DNA from: Eubacteriales bacterium
GTDB lineage: Bacteria > Bacillota > Clostridia > Acetivibrionales > JANLFN01
Assembly: GCA_024655885.1 (NCBI GenBank)
Contig: JANLFN010000022.1
Coordinates: 1 to 41,139 of the forward strand
Length of the DNA: 41,139 bases
Direction: 5' to 3'
Shown here: piece after piece, positions 23,968 to 34,971 of the stretch
Numbering within the stretch: position 1 is the stretch's first letter
Layout of the letters: the number at the start of each line of letters is the position of its first letter
Translations under genes and position numbers: made by a program
The notes under the pieces: generated by a model
Databases searched by the model: none
What the model was told of the DNA's origin: nothing
Seen by the model: only the letters and a program-made list of their open reading frames with translations

Positions 23968-24981
23968 TCACAATGTCCTTCCAACGGCGGAAGCTATCAG
24001 CTTTAAGTCGGACATGAGCTGGGCGAATTTTGAAGGTCTCAGCGACTGAGGCCCGTCAGAGAGAGCCACTGACGGGTCTGGATGCACCTCAATGATCAAA
24101 CCGTCCGCACCTGTGGCGATAGCCCCCTTTGACAGTGCCCCAACGTATTTCCAGTTTCCTGCGGCATGGCTCGGGTCAACGATGATTGGAAGATGAGAGA
24201 CTTCCTTAACCACCGGAATGGCACTCATATCTATGGTATTTCTTGTAGCGGTTTCATAGGTACGTATACCTCTTTCGCACAGAACAATATTGGGATTGCC
24301 CGCAGCCATTATATATTCCGCAGCCATAAGCCATTCCTCTATTGTAGCGGCAATACCCCTTTTTAGCAGTACAGCCTTGCCCGACGTTCCCACCTCCTGC
24401 AAAAGCCTGAAGTTTTGCATATTCCTTGCTCCTATTTGAATAATGTCGGCGTAGGATGCCACAAGCTCCACATCCCGTGTATCCATCACTTCGGTGACGA
24501 TTTTCAGTCCTGTAGCATCTCTGGCGGCGGCCAAGAGCTTCAGACCCTCCGTCTCCAGGCCCTGAAAGGCATAAGGAGAAGTGCGGGGCTTGAATGCACC
24601 TCCACGCAGTATTTTTGCTCCTGCTTCCCTGACTTTTACGGCCGTATCCATAAGCATCTTCTCGTTTTCAATGGCACAGGGCCCTGCCATTACAACCAGT
24701 TCATCTCCGCCGATTTTTACGTCCCCAACCTCTACAATGGTGGAGACCTGTTTTAGTTCGCGGCTTGCAAGCTTATACGGCTTCATTATTGGGACAAGAT
24801 TTTCAACCCCGGGCATGGATAAAATGGTTTGTGTATTCAGCAGCCTTTTATCTCCAATGGCCCCAATAACAGTCTTGATTTCCCCGAATATAGGATGGGT
24901 TTTAAATCCCAGCTGGGAAAGCTTCTTTTCAACATTATCAATTTGTTCTTTTGTCGCAGACTGATTCATGATGATTATCAT
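23968..24981 (-). CDS. aroF: 3-deoxy-7-phosphoheptulonate (DAHP) synthase, AroF/AroG-type with N-terminal regulatory domain
   Basis: 337 aa from the ATG at 24981, which has GGAGGTGAAACC immediately upstream; the frame remains open into the leader RNA but those codons are not protein. It catalyses the first step of the shikimate pathway, from phosphoenolpyruvate and erythrose 4-phosphate. The N-terminal ~70 residues form the ferredoxin/ACT-like domain used for feedback control in Thermotoga-type enzymes. The catalytic barrel shows [36 protein letters not shown]-like and [13 protein letters not shown] motifs. Expression is controlled by a T-box leader (25053-25361). It is encoded against the trp operon downstream and supplies its precursor. 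Confidence 0.96.
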
Positions 24982-25052
24982 GGTTTCACCTCCTGGTATA
25001 TGACTCGGGCAAAAATGCTTCCATGGTGTTGAGTCGTCTGTTTTGCCTAAAT

Positions 25053-25086
25053 AAAAAACTCCTGTCCCCTTCAAGGGACGAGGAGT
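25053..25086 (-). terminator. T-box regulated terminator of aroF
   Basis: On the minus strand ACTCCTCGTCCC pairs with GGGGACAGGAGT (about 11-12 bp with one mismatch, TTGAA-type loop), followed by TTTTTTATTT. It competes with the T-box antiterminator just upstream. Confidence 0.92.
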
Positions 25087-25361
25087 ATGTTCCCGCGGTA
25101 CCACCCAATTTGACTTCAATAAGTCCACTTAATCATGCACGGGAATGCAGTACGACAATCCGATGCACTTTTCCATATAACGGCGGAAATCCGGTTTAGC
25201 CTACTTCCACCCAAAATTCCCCGCGGAATAGAGGATGTTTCAGTAAACAGCTCAAAGAGGAACTTCAACGGCACTGCTTTCCCGGGCTTGCACCATCCCC
25301 GGGTCGCTCTGAAAGGTCGTATCGTCTACTTTCTCTTTTCACAGCATTTTTCCAATAAATT
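25053..25361 (-). promoter_or_regulatory. T-box riboswitch leader of aroF, probably phenylalanine-specific
   Basis: The conserved T-box GGGTGGTACCGCGGGAA reads on the minus strand at 25091-25107 and pairs to form the antiterminator that binds the free tRNA CCA end. Stem I is visible further upstream: AGAGAAAGTA with the loop-E AGTA, the distal GGTGCAAGCC motif, then CGTTGAA closing loop E. The specifier loop reads GAAGTTC; TTC (plus-strand 25260-25262, Phe) is the sensible codon because GTT (Val) makes no pathway sense, though the register is inferred. A promoter lies at 25368-25397. Uncharged tRNA would allow aroF expression. Confidence 0.93.
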
Positions 25362-27231: not shown

Positions 27232-27250
27232 ACATTCTGGGTGAGTGGAC

Positions 27251-27592
27251 ATGAAAAAAATAGAAGCAATTATCAGGCAAAGCAAACTGGATGAAGTGCT
27301 GGACGAGTTAAACAGGCATCAGATTTTCGGTGTTACGGTGACACAAGTCCAGGGCTGCGGGTTGCAGGGAGGAAAGACCCAGTATTACAGGGGAAATAAA
27401 TATACCATGAAGCTCAATCCGAAAACAAAGCTGGAGATTGTGGTGAAGGATCAGTGGGTTGACGAAATCATCCAGGCTATTATAAAAACAGCTAGGACGG
27501 GAGATATCGGGGATGGGAAAATTTTTGTCTATAGTATTGATGAATCCTACAGGATCAGGACGGGGGAAAAAGGAGAAGGCGCCCTGATTTAA
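27251..27592 (+). CDS. P-II family nitrogen regulatory protein (GlnB/GlnK-like)
   Basis: 113 aa from ATG 27251. P-II signatures are KIEAIIRQSKLDEVLDEL at the N-terminus, the T-loop GCGLQGGKTQYYRGNKY with Tyr51 (the uridylylation site in GlnB), the B-loop TARTGDIGDGKIFVYSID and the C-terminal RIRTGEKGEGAL. The ATP and 2-oxoglutarate-binding residues appear intact. It senses energy and carbon/nitrogen state and binds target proteins. No amtB or glnA is adjacent, so its partner is not given by context. A small membrane-protein gene follows after 38 bp. Confidence 0.95.
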   Translation: MKKIEAIIRQSKLDEVLDELNRHQIFGVTVTQVQGCGLQGGKTQYYRGNKYTMKLNPKTKLEIVVKDQWVDEIIQAIIKTARTGDIGDGKIFVYSIDESYRIRTGEKGEGALI

Positions 27593-27852: not shown

Positions 27853-27930
27853 CAAGACAAGGGGACGGTTCTTTTTTGACTCATCAAATGAGTCAAAAAA
27901 GAACCGTCCCCTTGTCTTGCTTGTTTTTTT
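27853..27930 (+). terminator. Palindromic repeat acting as terminator before the trp promoter
   Basis: 32 perfectly paired bases (27853-27884 with 27888-27919) around a 3-nt loop, followed by CTTGTTTTTTT. The arms contain the core GGGGACGGTTCTT. It begins 6 bp after the stop of the small membrane protein gene and insulates the trp promoter at 27943. Confidence 0.95.
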
Positions 27931-27942
27931 ATAAATTTTATC

Positions 27943-27971
27943 TTGATACTTTGAAGGCATCATGTTATAAT
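27943..27971 (+). promoter_or_regulatory. Sigma-A promoter of the trp operon
   Basis: TTGATA (27943-27948), 17-nt spacer, perfect TATAAT (27966-27971). Transcription should start near 27978. Confidence 0.9.
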
Positions 27972-27990
27972 TTTTATAATTTATTTTTAT

Positions 27991-28049
27991 GAGATTTAGA
28001 AGAGCAGAGATTGGAAGAGATGAGAAGAGACGAGGTGTGACGGGCAGAG
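27991..28049 (+). promoter_or_regulatory. Candidate TRAP (MtrB) binding site in the trp leader
   Basis: Triplets begin at 27991 (GAG), 27997 (TAG), 28002, 28007 (GAG), 28012 (TGG), 28017, 28022, 28027, 28032 (GAG), 28037 (GTG), 28042 (GGG) and 28047 (GAG). Nine of twelve are GAG/TAG; spacers are 2 nt except one of 3 nt. TRAP, an 11-mer ring, binds about eleven (G/U)AG triplets spaced by 2-3 nt when tryptophan is present. The site starts about 13 nt after the predicted transcription start and ends 9 nt before a terminator-like hairpin. The mtrB gene is not in the window. Confidence 0.75.
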
Positions 28050-28057
28050 CTGTCATT

Positions 28058-28084
28058 GGCCGGGGATCTTCAACCGGCTTTTTT
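28058..28084 (+). terminator. Leader terminator of the trp operon (attenuator)
   Basis: GCCGG (28059-28063) pairs with CCGGC (28074-28078), with a possible extra G-U pair outside, a 10-nt loop and TTTTTT (28079-28084). It lies directly after the triplet array. A possible competing pairing joins 28011-28018 in the array to TCTTCAA (28067-28073) in the loop (7 pairs, one bulge). TRAP binding would prevent that, but this part is weak. Confidence 0.7.
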
Positions 28085-28232
28085 AACGCTTGGAGAAATG
28101 GATGCTAGGTCCATTGCTTTTGGTATTCATCAGGGCGTCTTCAGAGTCTGTTTTTGAAATTAACACCTTAAAAAGACTTTACTTTCAATTGGCTTCTCAT
28201 GTCTTCTTTCTGGAAAGAAAGGAGGCGTCATT

Positions 28233-29717
28233 ATGTTTTACCCCGGTCTGGATGAGGTCAGGGTTCTGGCACAAAATTACAATCTCATTCCCGTAGCCAT
28301 GGAAATCTATGCGGATATGGAAACTCCCATCAGCCTTTTTAAGAGGTTTGAAAACGAAAAGTGCTGCTTTCTCCTGGAGAGTGTTGAGGGAGGCGAAAAC
28401 TGGGCACGTTTTTCCTTCATCGGAAAAAATCCCTTTTTGACGGTGAAAAGCTTGAAGGACAAATCGATTGTAGAAGACCGTTCCGGCAATATCACCGAAT
28501 TGGAAGGGAACCCCGTGGAGGTGCTGCGAGAAATCCTCGGGAGGTACAAGGCGGCGGATTTGCCGTCGGTTCCCAGGTTCAAGGGAGGGGCCGTAGGCTT
28601 TTTCGGTTACGACCTGGTGAGGTTTTACGAGAACCTGCCCAATTGCCCGAAAGATGACCTGGGACTGCCGGAAAGCCATTTTATGCTGACCGACGAGGTC
28701 ATTGCCTTTGACCACTTCAAGCAAAAAATATATATCATTGTAAACCTCCATGTGGGGGGAAACATTGAAAGAAGCTATAACAGCGCCGTTGAGAGGATCC
28801 GGTCCATATACAGGGAAATACTTTCCACCCGCTGGAAAGCATTTGACAGCATGAAAAACACGACTTCCGGGAATAAGCCGGCATTGAAGTACAAAAGCAA
28901 TATTTCCAAGGAAACCTATTGCAAAAATGTGGAAAAGGCCAAGAACTATATTAAAAACGGCGACATATTTCAAGTGGTGCTCTCACAGCGCCTGTGCGTG
29001 GAGACGGATAACGACCCCTTCAATGTCTACCGGGCCCTGAGGGTGATTAATCCCTCTCCATACATGTTCTACCTTAAATTCTCCGATTACAGGCTGGTGG
29101 GGGCATCCCCCGAGATGCTGGTACGGGTGGAAAACAAAAGGGTTGAAACCTGTCCCATCGCCGGGACCAGAAAAAGGGGAAACACCGAGGAAGAAGACGC
29201 CAGACTGGAAAAAGAGCTGCTGGCGGATGAAAAAGAACGGGCTGAACATACCATGCTGGTGGACCTGGGAAGGAATGACATCGGAAGGGTCTCAAAATAC
29301 GGGACTGTTGCCGTCAAGGATTTTATGCACGTCGAAAAGTATTCCCACGTCATGCATATGGTTACAAATATCCAGGGAGAGCTTGACCAGGGCAAAACAG
29401 CCTTTGACGCCCTTATGTCGCTGCTCCCTGCAGGAACTCTTTCAGGGGCTCCCAAGGTAAGGGCCATGCAGATTATTGATGAACTGGAAACGGTAAAAAG
29501 GGGGCCTTACGGGGGAGCCATCGGGTACATCAGCTTTAACGGGAACCTGGACAGCTGCATCACCATAAGGACCATCTTATTTAAGGGCAAAATCGCCTAT
29601 GTACAGGCGGGAGCGGGAATCGTAGCCGATTCGGTTCCCGAAAACGAATACCTGGAGTCCTTGAACAAGGCGCTTGCCCAGCTGAAGGCCATTGAGGAGG
29701 CAGGTGAATTGCTGTGA
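28233..29717 (+). CDS. trpE: Anthranilate synthase component I
   Basis: 494 aa. It converts chorismate and ammonia (from TrpG) to anthranilate. The N-terminal LLES motif (47-50) with following R-FSFIG is the tryptophan feedback site. The catalytic domain shows DIFQVVLSQRL, SPYMFYLKF, GASPEMLVRVE, CPIAGTRKRG, DLGRNDIGRVSKYGTV, HVMHMVTNIQG, LPAGTLSGAPKVRAMQIIDELE and GAIGYISFNGNLDSCITIRT. AAAGGAGG precedes the ATG. First gene of the trp operon, behind a TRAP-like leader. The stop overlaps the trpG start (GTGA). Confidence 0.97.
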   Translation: MFYPGLDEVRVLAQNYNLIPVAMEIYADMETPISLFKRFENEKCCFLLESVEGGENWARFSFIGKNPFLTVKSLKDKSIVEDRSGNITELEGNPVEVLREILGRYKAADLPSVPRFKGGAVGFFGYDLVRFYENLPNCPKDDLGLPESHFMLTDEVIAFDHFKQKIYIIVNLHVGGNIERSYNSAVERIRSIYREILSTRWKAFDSMKNTTSGNKPALKYKSNISKETYCKNVEKAKNYIKNGDIFQVVLSQRLCVETDNDPFNVYRALRVINPSPYMFYLKFSDYRLVGASPEMLVRVENKRVETCPIAGTRKRGNTEEEDARLEKELLADEKERAEHTMLVDLGRNDIGRVSKYGTVAVKDFMHVEKYSHVMHMVTNIQGELDQGKTAFDALMSLLPAGTLSGAPKVRAMQIIDELETVKRGPYGGAIGYISFNGNLDSCITIRTILFKGKIAYVQAGAGIVADSVPENEYLESLNKALAQLKAIEEAGELL

Positions 29718-30286
29718 TCTTGATTATTGACAATTATGATTCTTTTACCTATAACCTTTACCAGTATATCGGGGAGCTTGTTCCCAGTATCGCGGTGTAC
29801 AGGAATGACAAAATCAGCGTCCGTGAAATAAAGGATTTAAGGCCTACACACATTGTTATTTCGCCCGGACCGGGCTTCCCGGCGGAAGCGGGTGTATCCA
29901 TAGATATCATCAGGGAACTGGGGGAATATATTCCCATACTGGGGGTATGCCTGGGACACCAGGCCATAGGCGAGGCCTATGGAGGAAAAATCGTGCATGC
30001 AAAGGAACTGATGCACGGAAAATCCTCGGAGGTGGAAATCGACAGGGAGTGCCAGCTGTTTGCATCCCTGCCGGGCAGGATCCGGGTGGGAAGATACCAT
30101 TCGCTGATTGTGGAAAAAAGCTGCCTGCCCAGTGTTTTACGGGTTACCGCCAGGACGGACGACGGGGAAATTATGGGATTGAAGCATAAGGAATATCCTG
30201 TTTTCGGGATACAGTTCCATCCTGAATCCATCCTGACCCCGGATGGGAAAAAGATACTGGAAAATTTTTTATCCCTGAGGGCATAG
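29714..30286 (+). CDS. trpG: Anthranilate synthase component II (glutamine amidotransferase)
   Basis: 190 aa, GTG start overlapping the trpE stop by 4 bp. Class I amidotransferase with nucleophile Cys79 (GVCLGHQAIGEAYGG) and the His169/Glu171 pair (FGIQFHPES). IDNYDSFTYNLYQYIGE and ISPGPGFP are typical of TrpG/PabA. It delivers ammonia to TrpE; it may also serve para-aminobenzoate synthesis, as in Bacillus, if no separate pabA exists. Confidence 0.96.
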   Translation: MILIIDNYDSFTYNLYQYIGELVPSIAVYRNDKISVREIKDLRPTHIVISPGPGFPAEAGVSIDIIRELGEYIPILGVCLGHQAIGEAYGGKIVHAKELMHGKSSEVEIDRECQLFASLPGRIRVGRYHSLIVEKSCLPSVLRVTARTDDGEIMGLKHKEYPVFGIQFHPESILTPDGKKILENFLSLRA

Positions 30287-30339
30287 GAGGAATGTCGACT
30301 ATGAAAGAAAAGAAGAGCTGAGATGGGAGGAGAGGCTTT

Positions 30340-31371
30340 ATGATCAAAGAAGCCATACAAAAACTGGTTGAAGGAAAGGATTTAATGGAAGAAGAAGCGG
30401 TGGAAGCCATGAACTGTATTATGGAGGGGGAGGCGACTGCTGCACAGATAGGGAGCTTTATTACGGCATTGAGGATCAAGGGCGAGACCGTAGAGGAGAT
30501 AACCGGATGTGCAAAGGTTATGCGGCAGAAAGCGGAAAAAATAGAGCCGGATCTGCCCTATTGCATTGACACCTGCGGCACCGGAGGGGACGGAGCGGAT
30601 ACCTTCAATATATCTACCGCTTCCGCCCTTGTGGCCGCTGCGGGCGGGGCGGCGGTGGCAAAGCATGGAAACAGGTCTGTTTCCAGCAAAAGCGGCAGCG
30701 CAGACGTGCTTGAAGCGCTGGGGGTCTATATTGAGCTCACCCCCGGCCAGGTCAGGAACTGTATTGAAAAGCTGGGCATAGGCTTCATGTTTGCCCCGGG
30801 GTTTCACAAATCCATGAAGCATGCGGCCGGCCCAAGACGCGACCTGGGCATAAGGTCCATATTCAACATCCTGGGACCTCTGACCAACCCTGCCGCGTCC
30901 AAAGGACATGTCCTGGGAGTATTCGACGAAAAATTGACCGGACCCCTGGCCCGGGTTTTAAAAAACCTGGGCACCCATAAGGCCTTGGTGGTTCATGGGA
31001 TGGACGGACTTGACGAAATAACTGTGACGGGGCCTACAAAGGTATCGGAATTGAAAGACGGAGAAATTTTTGAATATTATATCCACCCGGAGGAATTCGG
31101 CCTTCAGAGGGCTTCTATAGACGAGGTTAAAGGCGGAAACGCAAGAGAAAATGCGGACATCATCACACGGATTTTTAACGGCGAAAAGGGGCCCAAAAGG
31201 GATATAACGGTTATTAACTCCGCAGCCGCACTCTATGTGGGAAAAGTTGTGGACAGTCTCGAGGATGGAATTAAGCTGTCGGAAGAGATTATCGACTCCC
31301 GGAAGGCGTTGAACAAACTGCTGGAATTTAAGGAGCACACAAACCGTCTGGCTGTGGCCCAGGAACTGTAA
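30340..31371 (+). CDS. trpD: Anthranilate phosphoribosyltransferase
   Basis: 343 aa. It transfers phosphoribose from PRPP to anthranilate. Motifs: CIDTCGTGGDGADTFNIST (PRPP loop), VAKHGNRSVSSKSGSADVLEALG, FMFAPGFHKSMKHAAGPRRDLGIRSIFNILGPLTNPA, and VHGMDGLDEIT. The start at 30340 has GGGAGGAGAGG upstream, in a purine-rich stretch with several GAG triplets (30315-30332). 53 bp separate it from trpG, the longest gap in the first half of the operon. Confidence 0.97.
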   Translation: MIKEAIQKLVEGKDLMEEEAVEAMNCIMEGEATAAQIGSFITALRIKGETVEEITGCAKVMRQKAEKIEPDLPYCIDTCGTGGDGADTFNISTASALVAAAGGAAVAKHGNRSVSSKSGSADVLEALGVYIELTPGQVRNCIEKLGIGFMFAPGFHKSMKHAAGPRRDLGIRSIFNILGPLTNPAASKGHVLGVFDEKLTGPLARVLKNLGTHKALVVHGMDGLDEITVTGPTKVSELKDGEIFEYYIHPEEFGLQRASIDEVKGGNARENADIITRIFNGEKGPKRDITVINSAAALYVGKVVDSLEDGIKLSEEIIDSRKALNKLLEFKEHTNRLAVAQEL

Positions 31372-31389
31372 ATTCAAAAGGAGGCAAGC

Positions 31390-32172
31390 ATGATTCTGGA
31401 CAAAATTGTAGAAGAGAAAAAGCTTCAGCTGGAGCAGGAGAAAAAAAAGATTTCCATAGAAGGCTGGAAGAGCAGGTTGAAAGCGTCCGGCCTGCATAGG
31501 ACCATGGATTTTGGAAAGGCAATAAACAGGGAAAATCAAATTTCCATCATAGGGGAAGTAAAGAAGGCATCTCCTTCCAAGGGGGTCATAAAGGAAGAGT
31601 TCGACCCCCTGGAAATTGCCGGCGAGTACTATAGGGCAAAGGTGGAAGCCCTTTCGGTGCTTACCGAAAAAAACTATTTCATGGGGAGCGATGAATACCT
31701 TGTAAAAATACGGCAGTCCTTTCCCATCCCCATACTGAGAAAGGATTTTGTCATTGACATTTGGCAGGTATACCAGTCCCGCTGCCTTGGGGCCGACGCC
31801 ATACTGCTCATCGCTTCCCTGCTCACCGCCAATGACCTGCGGAGATTCCTGGTAACCGCAGGCATCCTCGGGATGCAGTGCCTGGTTGAGGTCCATGACA
31901 GGGATGATCTGGAAAAGGCGCTGGAGGCGGACGCCGGGATTATAGGCATCAATAACCGGGATCTGAGGAGCTTTGATGTAGACCTTGGAACCACCGAAAA
32001 ACTTATAAACCATATCCCTGAGGGAAAGATTGTGGTGAGTGAAAGCGGAATAAAATCACCGGAAGATATTGGATTTTTAAAATCCCTGGGCGTCAATGCG
32101 GTATTGATCGGGGAGGCTTTCATGCGGGCCAATTCCATAGGAGGCAAATTGGATGAACTGCGGGCGGGATAA
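31390..32172 (+). CDS. trpC: Indole-3-glycerol phosphate synthase
   Basis: 260 aa. It closes the indole ring from CdRP. Motifs: IIGEVKKASPSKGVI (catalytic Lys), ALSVLTEKNYFMGSDEYL, PILRKDFVIDIWQVYQSRCLGADAILLI, GMQCLVEVHDRDDLEKAL, IGINNRDLRSFDVDL and VSESGIKSPEDI. AAAAGGAGGC precedes the ATG. The 3' end overlaps the trpF start by 20 bp. Confidence 0.97.
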   Translation: MILDKIVEEKKLQLEQEKKKISIEGWKSRLKASGLHRTMDFGKAINRENQISIIGEVKKASPSKGVIKEEFDPLEIAGEYYRAKVEALSVLTEKNYFMGSDEYLVKIRQSFPIPILRKDFVIDIWQVYQSRCLGADAILLIASLLTANDLRRFLVTAGILGMQCLVEVHDRDDLEKALEADAGIIGINNRDLRSFDVDLGTTEKLINHIPEGKIVVSESGIKSPEDIGFLKSLGVNAVLIGEAFMRANSIGGKLDELRAG

Positions 32173-32887
32173 GTATTCCGGGGGGGGCTGCCCTCCGAAG
32201 GTGAAAATATGCGGGATTACAAGGGAAATTGAAAGCGCCTTCATTAACAGGCACTTGCCTGACTACGCGGGGTTTGTATTTGCTAAAAGCAAAAGACAGA
32301 TCACTCCTTTATTCGTGAAAAGCCTATCCCCTCTTCTGGACAGGAGGGTAAAGAAGGTAGGGGTATTTGTCAATGAAGACATCCAAAAGGTTGTGGAAAT
32401 TGTGGGGCTGTGCGGCCTGGACGTGGTCCAACTGCATGGGGAGGAAACTCCCCTGTACGTGGAAAGCCTGCGAAAAGCGCTTTCCAGGCCCGCGACCCCA
32501 CAGGGCCGGGAGGCGGGAAAAGTGGAAATATGGAAAGCGGTGAGGGTGGCAGGCGCTGAAAGTCTGCAGGGCTTGGAAAACTACCAGGCAGACGCCTTTT
32601 TGCTGGACGCCTACCGTGAAGGACAGTATGGCGGCACTGGAGGAACATTTAACTGGGAAGTAGCGGCGGAGGTCCATAAAAAGTATAGGATTGTATTGGC
32701 GGGAGGCTTGAACAGAGAGAATGTCCGGGAGGCAATATCCGCCGTCAGGCCCTTTGCCGTAGATGTGAGCAGCGGAGTGGAAACGGACGGCATAAAGGAT
32801 GAGATCAAAATCAGGGAATTAATCCGTGAAGTAAGGACAGCCTGCTTCAACTCTTCCAATAACCGTTTGGGAAACGACGGGCCTTAG
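32153..32887 (+). CDS. trpF: Phosphoribosylanthranilate isomerase
   Basis: 244 aa from ATG 32153, which has an ideal AGGAGG 8 nt upstream inside trpC. This gives a 16-residue N-terminal extension before VKICGITR, where the family usually begins; GTG 32201 (V of VKICG) is the alternative, without a good ribosome site. The extension is coded across a G8 run (32180-32187). Catalytic Cys and Asp are in KICGITR and VSSGVET. About a dozen extra residues (SRPATPQGREAGK) interrupt the usual loop before VEIWKAVRV. It catalyses the Amadori rearrangement of PRA to CdRP. Confidence 0.93.
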   Translation: MNCGRDKYSGGGCPPKVKICGITREIESAFINRHLPDYAGFVFAKSKRQITPLFVKSLSPLLDRRVKKVGVFVNEDIQKVVEIVGLCGLDVVQLHGEETPLYVESLRKALSRPATPQGREAGKVEIWKAVRVAGAESLQGLENYQADAFLLDAYREGQYGGTGGTFNWEVAAEVHKKYRIVLAGGLNRENVREAISAVRPFAVDVSSGVETDGIKDEIKIRELIREVRTACFNSSNNRLGNDGP

Positions 32888-32912
32888 GGGTGCCGGAGCA
32901 GCCGGATAAATT
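32884..32912 (+). repeat. Copy 1 of a 29-bp imperfect direct repeat
   Basis: TTAGGGGTG-CCG-GAGCA-G-CCGGATAAATT between trpF and trpB. The second copy at 35354-35382 differs at only four positions. It overlaps the trpF stop codon. Confidence 0.6.
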
Positions 32913-32990
32913 CAATTCTAAAGCGGGATAGCCATGACGGCCATCCGGGGATGGAACAGTAAGCCAAATATATTGAGCGGAGGTAGGGCT

Positions 32991-34184
32991 ATGACTTTTC
33001 AAAAAAAAGGAAGGTTCGGAAAGTTCGGAGGGCAGTATGCCCCTGAGACATTGATGAATGCTTTGATAGAACTGGAGAGGGAATATGACAGGTATAAACA
33101 GGAGGACGACTTTAATAATGATTTAAATTTTTACTATAAAGAATATGCAGGCAGGCCTTCCATGCTGTATTATGCGGAGAGGATGACGAAAAGCCTGGGC
33201 GGGGCAAAAGTTTACTTAAAGAGGGAAGACTTAAACCACACAGGGTCCCATAAGATAAACAACGTATTGGGTCAGGTGCTGCTGGCAAAAAGAATGGGAA
33301 AGAAAAGAGTGATTGCGGAGACGGGAGCCGGACAGCACGGTGTGGCCACGGCCACGGCAGCGGCCCTGTTCAACATGGAGTGTGAGGTTTTTATGGGGAA
33401 GGAAGACATGGAGCGCCAGTCGCTAAATGTCTTCAGGATGAAGCTGCTGGGGGCGGAGGTGCATCCGGTGTCATCCGGCACGGGGACTTTGAAGGATGCC
33501 ACCAGCGAAGCAATGCGCAACTGGGCCTTAAGGGTTGAAGATGCCTTCTATGTCATAGGCTCGGTGGTGGGCCCACATCCATACCCGACCATGGTCCGGG
33601 ATTTTCAAAGCGTCATTGGCCGTGAGGTGAAGGAACAAATTCTAAAAAAGGAAGGCAGGTATCCGGATTACCTGATTGCATGCGTAGGCGGCGGAAGCAA
33701 TGCCATGGGGCTGTTTTATCCCTTTTTGGAGGATGAGGAGGTAGGCATGGTGGGGGTGGAAGCGGCAGGCAAGGGGCTGGATACCGGAAAGCATGCGGCT
33801 TCCATAACCAGGGGGAGCATAGGGGTTTTGCACGGCATGAAGTCCTATTTCCTGCAGGACAGGGATGGGCAGATCAATCCTGTGTACTCCATTTCCGCAG
33901 GCCTGGACTACCCGGGGATAGGTCCGCAGCACGCCCACTTTTATGAAACCGGCAGGGCCCAATATGTTTCAGTAACCGATGATGAAGCGGTGGAAGCCTT
34001 TAAATACCTGACAAGAACCGAGGGCATCATCCCCGCACTGGAGAGCTCCCACGCTGTGGCCTATGCCTTGAAGCTTGCACCCAGGCTTTCGGGGGACAAA
34101 ATCATCGTAATAAACCTTTCGGGCAGGGGAGACAAGGACGCATATACAGTGGCCCGCTATATGGGGGTGGATATAAATGAATAG
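32991..34184 (+). CDS. trpB: Tryptophan synthase beta chain
   Basis: 397 aa from ATG 32991 (CGGAGG 10 nt upstream; the frame is open to 32934 but unsupported). PLP enzyme joining indole and serine. Starts [19 protein letters not shown] Lys88 is in [19 protein letters not shown], the phosphate loop [10 protein letters not shown], and GRGDKD near the C-terminus are all present. It ends 8 bp inside trpA, allowing translational coupling of the two subunits of the alpha2-beta2 complex. Confidence 0.98.
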
Positions 34185-34971
34185 AATAGACAAAAAATTC
34201 GAAGAGCTTAAGGCTCAAAACAAGAAAGCGCTTATAACCTTTGTTACGGCAGGAGACCCGGATTTAGACACCACTATTTTGCTAATTAAAGAGATGGAGA
34301 GCCAGGGAGCCGACATCATCGAGCTGGGAATCCCCTATTCGGACCCCATAGCGGAAGGACCCGTAATCCAGTCCGCCAATGCGAGAGCCTTAAAAAACGG
34401 TATAAAGATAAAGAATGTGATGGAGGCTGTGAAAAGGGCGAGAGAAAGCGTGAAAGTCCCGTTGATTTATCTTTTGTACTTTAATTGCATCTTGCAGTAC
34501 GGACCTGAATGTTTCTTTTCGGATTGCAAAGAGTCGGGCATCGACGGCGTCATAATACCGGATCTGCCTTTTGAGGAACGGGATGAAGTGCAGGGCTGTG
34601 CGGACGGCTGTGGTATCCACCTTATTTCCCTGGTATCGCCTACATCCAGGGAACGCATGGGAAAAATAGCAAAGAACGCAAGAGGGTTCCTCTACTGTGT
34701 CTCCTCTCTGGGAGTTACAGGAATGAGAGACAGGTTTGAGACGGATTTTGACGATTTCTTCCGCACCATAAACAAATACGCACATCTGCCCAAGGCTCTT
34801 GGCTTCGGCATATCGACGGCGGAACATATCCGGGAACTGAAAGGCTACTGCGACGGCTTAATCGTGGGAAGTGCCGTTGTGAAGCAGGTTGAGAGGAGCC
34901 GCGATGCAGGTGAAGCGGTAATTAACGTGGGAAATTTCGTGAAGACGCTCCGAAAGGCAATGGATGAATAG
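34177..34971 (+). CDS. trpA: Tryptophan synthase alpha chain
   Basis: 264 aa. It cleaves indole-3-glycerol phosphate and passes indole to Trp[25 protein letters not shown] (catalytic Glu49; position 60 is Glu where E. coli has Asp60), LPFEERDEV and [10 protein letters not shown] are present. The Asp-to-Glu change at the second catalytic acid is conservative. The start overlaps trpB by 8 bp. Last gene of the trp operon; no strong terminator is seen before the promoter at 35008. Confidence 0.97.

Follow-up and report, generated by a model that had tools for sequence, protein, structure and literature searches.

The trp operon leader in the stretch of clostridial DNA analysed here (the window: 41,139 nt, contig JANLFN010000022.1 of a Eubacteriales bacterium) is very probably regulated by the tryptophan-sensing protein TRAP (MtrB), through transcription termination and refolding around the trpE Shine-Dalgarno sequence, with a further step at trpD in most relatives. 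The leader has the triplets typical of TRAP targets, the host genome encodes MtrB with the residues for RNA binding, and the array is conserved in front of trpE; to these observations we add predicted folds. TRAP has been characterized best in Bacillus, and T-boxes are what one usually associates with clostridial trp operons.

The trp leader of the window

The elements from which we start are, in order:

27943..27971, plus strand: promoter, TTGATA-17-TATAAT with TG before the -10 element, read from the sequence
27991..28049, plus strand: TRAP-type array of 12 triplets, nine GAG/TAG plus TGG, GTG and GGG
28058..28084, plus strand: intrinsic terminator, stem 28058-28063/28074-28079, T6 28079-28084
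28233..29717, plus strand: trpE, first gene of the operon
28233 to 34971, plus strand: operon trpE-G-D-C-F-B-A, in which we take trpG to trpA to be as named from recognition of their translations

Transcription would start near 27978, as placed from the promoter end at 27971. The triplets begin at 27991 (GAG), 27997 (TAG), 28002 (GAG), 28007 (GAG), 28012 (TGG), 28017 (GAG), 28022 (GAG), 28027 (GAG), 28032 (GAG), 28037 (GTG), 28042 (GGG) and 28047 (GAG). The first spacer measures 3 nt and all others 2 nt, and the last 11 triplets keep an exact 5-nt period from 27997. An earlier note on this DNA, made from its letters alone, had described twelve triplets of this composition and period, preceded by a promoter and followed by a GC hairpin with a U6 tract, and direct reading bears it out on each of these points.

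Counted from 27997, (G/T)AG occupies 8/11 array slots. The best eight plus-strand places listed in the window all overlap the array, the best minus-strand place scores 3, and 200 second-order Markov simulations of window-sized sequence reached 6 once and otherwise at most 5. Searched across the 3.44-Mb genome with 2 mismatches allowed, a 6-triplet pattern gave 8 forward and 0 reverse matches, six being the trp array and two overlapping at one other place; the reversed pattern, run as a control on the whole genome, gave 4 forward and 4 reverse matches. With this 6-triplet pattern we found no convincing further TRAP target in the host genome.

Two neighbours upstream of the operon were also recorded. 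A near-perfect 67-bp palindrome (27853-27919, 64/67) separates the trp promoter from a small gene; it belongs to a dispersed repeat family, with 40 genome matches listed when both strands of one place are counted. Positions 27245-27592 hold a gene for a P-II (GlnB-type) nitrogen regulatory protein (PF00543).

Conservation of the array in front of trpE

A TrpE search of 58 genomes of the order matched 50; upstream DNA was taken from 48 (30 + 18), the fragmentary TrpE matches of G036 and G039 being left out. The 30 trpE loci (62-100% identity) were oriented to the trpE strand. Comparison of relatives had been proposed in the earlier note, and the array is indeed kept in G054, the one other genome of the same family among those analysed, and no more than 500 nt upstream of trpE in 30/30 loci, with chain scores from 4.0 to 14.5. 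The number of chained triplets per locus ranges from 4 to 18, with at least 7 in 27/30, at least 9 in 14/30 and at least 11 canonical ones in 5/30; stable TRAP binding has been reported for at least seven repeats (PMC4027176). The opposite strand, used as a control in 14 of the 30 loci, scored 1.0-2.0 versus 5.5-10.5 on the trpE strand.

Close to the 3' end of the array, GAAGAGATGAGAAGAGACGAGG is common to the window and many other leaders. What the window's array has in common with many relatives reaches to about 28034, and the last three triplets (28037-28049) lie beyond this point. One locus (L056 of G042) has 18 chained triplets across 124 nt before trpE, which leaves room for more than one TRAP ring. 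A clear terminator follows the array in 27/30 leaders; the three genomes without one (G005, G008 and G048) were excluded from all terminator counts (n=27).

Predicted antiterminator and terminator

Folding adds two predicted elements to the window leader:

28034..28061, plus strand: antiterminator hairpin, 28034-28043 with 28050-28056 and 28059-28061 (predicted, pair probability 0.88-1.0)
28024..28071, plus strand: array GAAGA (28024-28028) with UCUUC (28067-28071) of the terminator loop, antiterminated fold (predicted, 0.96-0.99)

In the first of these, GGUGUGACGG (28034-28043) is predicted to pair with CUGUCAU (28050-28056) and GCC (28059-28061) at -11.8 kcal/mol (z -1.73), so that one strand takes in the last triplets and the other the terminator's 5' arm. 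The earlier note had seen no strong antiterminator, which this predicted helix does not bear out, and had surmised for want of one that the mechanism could differ from that of Bacillus, which is right only in part. A helix of Bacillus logic exists, and pairing between loop and array, of the kind that was noticed, helps the predicted fold: the proposed array/terminator-loop helix forms in the free fold, in the register 28024-28028/28067-28071 and not at 28011-28018.

The free transcript ending after the terminator folds with a terminator probability of 0 (0.06 in a separate run over all leaders), and holding 27991-28034 unpaired as a mimic of TRAP raises it to 1.0 (1.00 in the all-leader run), which is the outcome of the comparison of free and blocked arrays suggested in the note. 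The overall fold of the transcript up to the terminator is unexceptional (z -1.37, 16/200 shuffles as good).

An antiterminator that overlaps both triplets and terminator is predicted for the window, and the picture is mixed over the 27 leaders. For the 50-nt antiterminator segment, the predicted fold has only a slight advantage over shuffles (mean z -0.82, negative in 19/27). When the transcript is truncated ahead of the 3' arm, the CC in the 5' arm finds an upstream partner with a probability above 0.5 in 18/27 leaders, and this pairing beats its shuffled control in 19/27 (p 0.02). Blocking the array lifts the mean terminator probability from 0.69 to 0.99, with a rise of more than 0.05 in 13/27 and a decrease in 1/27; with a free array, the probability stays below 0.5 in the window and in seven relatives, and blocking brings it near 1 there. 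At equilibrium without TRAP, the terminator exceeds 0.5 in 19/26 leaders other than the window, and with the real array it falls below its own shuffled-array control in 10/27 (means 0.69 vs 0.91, p 0.48). Since the terminator exceeds 0.5 with a free array and only these 10/27 lie below their controls, the folding model implies that antitermination must be kinetic, weak or absent in the leaders where the terminator persists.

We also compared the base that follows GG near the array end with the terminator. GGC goes with GCC in 17 leaders and GGT with ACC in 4, two are crossed (one being the window) and four show neither, an association with p 0.0027 in a hand count that excludes the four last-named leaders and is uncorrected for relatedness and for the choice among GG triplets. 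Where several GG triplets occur (e.g. G012, G054), one near the shared array end was picked, and the GGC of G011 and G054 was read by eye. Because of the hand count, this picking and the two readings by eye, the test is soft. The terminator loop contains TTCT or TCTT in 19/27 leaders, compared with 3/38 hairpins of terminator type in the neighbourhood of mtrB within the order, and its complementarity to the array exceeds that of shuffled loops in 23/27. Co-evolution of the loop with its own array was not found, own pairing being stronger than that with swapped arrays in 13/27.

The trpE Shine-Dalgarno hairpin and the triplet run at trpD

Three further elements lie near ribosome-binding sites:

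28194..28206, plus strand: anti-array TTCTCATGTCTTC, complementary to array 28014-28026 (12/13, one G-G mismatch)
28201..28226, plus strand: 11-bp hairpin that covers the trpE Shine-Dalgarno sequence (AGGAGG, 28220-28225), with a 5' strand overlapping the anti-array
30315..30332, plus strand: degenerate triplet run (GAG, GAG, GGG, GAG, 5-nt period) over the trpD ribosome-binding site

The hairpin, the run at trpD and the antiterminator had no counterpart in the earlier note. The hairpin pairs GTCTTCTTTCT (28201-28211) with AGAAAGGAGGC (28216-28226) over 11 bp. Many leaders have TCTCATGTCTTC or a similar sequence just before trpE, followed by a helix onto the Shine-Dalgarno sequence. The best such helix has 7-11 contiguous pairs and a loop not exceeding 11 nt in 25/30 leaders, and is long-looped or only 3 bp in the remaining five (G004, G029, G031, G042 and G057). 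Its inner pairs vary as TA, CG, AT and GC, i.e. with changes on both sides, in helices that are the best of a search and have no shuffled control.

The duplex of a leader's own array and anti-array is stronger than the mean obtained with shuffled anti-arrays in 29/30 leaders and with shuffled arrays in 25/30. When the array is blocked, mean exposure of the Shine-Dalgarno sequence over the 30 leaders drops from 0.29 to 0.08, by more than 0.05 in 23/30 and with an opposite shift in one; shuffled arrays give 0.17, and the real array yields the higher value in 23/30 (p 0.0012). For the window itself, folding shows no translational switch (Shine-Dalgarno sequence unpaired 0.01 free, 0.00 blocked), and its leader into trpE folds no better than shuffles (z -0.31).

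The genes trpD and trpG could each be located in 26 of the 30 loci, the window being among the 26 for trpD. At least four in-register triplets lie within about 69 nt before trpD in 18/26 genes, overlapping the Shine-Dalgarno sequence as judged by eye; the mean number is 3.92 before trpD vs 1.35 before trpG, and control ribosome-binding regions near mtrB contain four triplets in 1/34 cases. The window trpD site, with three triplets plus GGG, is not significant alone: it leans on the relatives, because 242/1000 shuffles do as well.

Proposed mechanism

With excess tryptophan, a TRAP ring would wrap the triplets of the nascent transcript at about 27991-28044 and keep 28034-28043 as well as GAAGA (28024-28028) away from their pairing partners in the terminator base and loop. 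With that strand blocked, the terminator at 28058-28084 would form and transcription would end before trpE, and when tryptophan is short the free array would build the antiterminator and the operon would be transcribed. On transcripts that read through, TRAP bound to the array would free the anti-array, the 3' part of which could then close the hairpin that covers the trpE Shine-Dalgarno sequence; in the absence of TRAP, the array would compete for the anti-array. In most relatives examined, the shorter run of triplets at the ribosome-binding site of trpD may serve as a further step. For the cell we infer tryptophan-dependent binding of MtrB, termination and translational control.

Generalized to the order, TRAP would act in three steps, combining termination via a composite antiterminator, whose array strand pairs with base and loop of a strong intrinsic terminator, with refolding at the trpE Shine-Dalgarno sequence and a second TRAP site on the Shine-Dalgarno sequence of trpD within the operon, operating without anti-TRAP and sensing only free tryptophan at trp, with T-boxes elsewhere in the pathway; we advance this fuller scheme tentatively, as having somewhat less than an even chance of being right in all its parts.

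An unlikely alternative to the termination part is that TRAP acts on translation only, at the ribosome-binding regions of trpE and trpD, and that the terminator is a constitutive filter without a real antiterminator. The Shine-Dalgarno part is indeed the more uniform one across leaders, and in 17/27 replacing the real array by shuffled ones does not raise the terminator probability. However, the terminator of the window and seven relatives passes from below 0.5 to near 1 upon blocking, its 5' arm pairs upstream (>0.5) in 18/27 cut transcripts, GGC tends to accompany GCC and GGT to accompany ACC, and in the window it is the translational step that folding fails to show.

MtrB in the host, the order and the class

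The host genome (3.44 Mb, 65 contigs) carries one TrpBP/MtrB gene, found over the cut-off in a profile search (E 1.5e-38); its PDB matches are TRAP/MtrB chains in 15/15 cases, and among 14 control genomes Bacillus subtilis alone matches. The earlier note had named an mtrB gene in the host as a check of its TRAP-type attenuator, and that reading gains support from the gene and from the arrays kept in relatives. According to PMC4027176, the contacts of each (G/U)AG repeat are divided between two subunits, Glu36 and Lys37 coming from one and Lys56 and Arg58 from the next. Equivalents of these four residues are retained in 30/30 MtrB loci fetched from the 53 mtrB-bearing genomes of the order (53/58). 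TRAP occurs in 89/391 sampled genomes of the class, and for this reason it is not exceptional in Clostridia. Anti-TRAP (PF15777) was found over the cut-off in 0/58 genomes of the order; matches below the cut-off in 10/58 genomes, in open frames of 120-703 aa, are presumably zinc repeats of the DnaJ type.

It is very improbable that the array is a remnant, or the target of another protein that binds purine-rich RNA. Such a view could draw on the three non-canonical triplets of the window and on G031, where a well-formed array precedes trpE (L050) and no mtrB match was obtained in a genome rated 99% complete, but mtrB is present in 29/30 array-bearing genomes and the RNA contacts are kept in 30/30 MtrB loci examined. 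Still less probable is a leader-peptide attenuator, in which ribosome stalling at Trp codons of a short frame decides the fold: an ATG at 27989 does open a 39-codon frame through the array, but this frame has a single Trp codon, near its end, instead of a cluster, and no ribosome-binding site was seen before it in the window sequence. This candidate was rejected.

T-boxes and differences between lineages

The least probable reading of all, in which a T-box leader responding to uncharged tRNA-Trp controls trpE instead of TRAP, was rejected for the window, since the T-box model (RF00230) has no match before its trpE and none at gathering score in the 30 array-bearing loci, although T-boxes do precede trpE elsewhere in the order and one stands in the window before a DAHP synthase gene.

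Among the 18 other trpE-like loci of the order, five have a T-box before trpE at gathering score, and four, all in genus g7 (4/4 tested at a lower threshold), lie just under it (80-90 vs 93 bits, E 1e-16 to 3e-19). The T-box of the window (25071-25351, minus strand, 118.9 bits) precedes the DAHP synthase gene at 23968-25128, and its specifier was read by eye as UUC (Phe). Because this gene is preceded by a T-box, apparently for Phe, the device that reads the common aromatic step seems to differ from that of the trp branch.

Genus g7 has an array elsewhere in 9/11 genomes according to a pattern search, which detected none in G017 and G019. In the nine loci read (9/9, L185-L193), the array precedes a TrpP-like frame and then an ABC-ATPase-like frame (domains PF17099 and PF00005 in the one locus checked). 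It includes AAGTAGAGA and lies about 150 nt before the TrpP-like gene, and CCTCTACT or CCTCTGCT before the start of that gene complements the array start and the Shine-Dalgarno sequence GGAGG. Judged from sequence, the TrpP-like gene is predicted to follow the logic of the trpE leader at another gene; folding of the nine leaders gave no clear switch (Shine-Dalgarno sequence unpaired 0.00-0.14 free, 0.00-0.02 blocked).

Some loci stand apart. In G027, a broken trpE match lies behind an array interrupted as seen by eye (L157); another array, accompanied by a complementary stretch, precedes a 728 aa frame running into a TrpE match (L194); TRAP control has perhaps been re-established there on another anthranilate synthase. 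In L178 (G009) and L182 (G013), arrays extend across the probable start of a gene resembling those for methyltransferases (PF08241 in L178), and what we take to be a chorismate-mutase-like frame adjoins the array in L178. These methyltransferase-like genes are possible new TRAP targets.

Beyond the order, 71 mtrB-bearing genomes of other clostridial families were searched, with a TrpE match in 46. Twelve of 30 loci from these families reach a chain score of at least 7 (f33, f38, f53 and f55; the gene start of L228 is uncertain), and five of those with a score below 7 show a T-box core by eye.

Comparison with known systems

The leader described here resembles that of the B. subtilis trp operon in its roughly 11 (G/U)AG triplets, an antiterminator overlapping the terminator and a downstream structure that sequesters the ribosome-binding site. 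Antiterminator, terminator and sequestering structure of B. subtilis are described in PMC3913778, and features of that leader also in PMC4027176 and PMC4347634. The attenuators of Bacillus species are reported, again in PMC3913778, to be poor terminators whose GC content is low and whose U runs are interrupted, and TRAP is said to bring about termination even in their absence. In the order studied here, by contrast, the stem is more than half G+C in 25/27 leaders and the T run has at least five residues in 20/27. Further differences from B. subtilis are the often pyrimidine-rich, array-complementary terminator loop, the position of trpG inside the operon and the lack of an anti-TRAP match over the cut-off.

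At the level of translation, the trpE Shine-Dalgarno hairpin, with a 5' strand complementary to the array, has a reported parallel in the trpE leader of Bacillus subtilis. TRAP is also known to block ribosome-binding sites directly in B. subtilis (PMC4347634), where triplets overlap the Shine-Dalgarno sequences of trpG and trpP, as they do here at trpD in 18/26; unlike there, the target is trpD within the operon, and the site of the window is degenerate. The TrpP-type transporter gene of genus g7 differs from B. subtilis trpP in having its array far upstream and a complementary stretch before the start. The T-box-controlled trp operon of clostridia such as C. phytofermentans (PMC5171806) is the same operon under the same class of signal, tryptophan supply, whereas the array-bearing loci have no T-box at gathering score.

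We found no description of TRAP arrays in Clostridia in the openly licensed literature, most subscription papers being outside the scope of the search; a 2008 survey marks TRAP-bearing Firmicutes in a figure that may include clostridia (PMC2494555). The order presents a clostridial group with TRAP in 53/58 genomes, whose lineages differ in having TRAP or a T-box before trpE. Its thirty leaders form a natural data set for asking which parts of an attenuator matter and whether TRAP needs a good intrinsic terminator. With MtrB binding predicted from its triplets, the leader of the window would belong with the known TRAP-controlled trp leaders.
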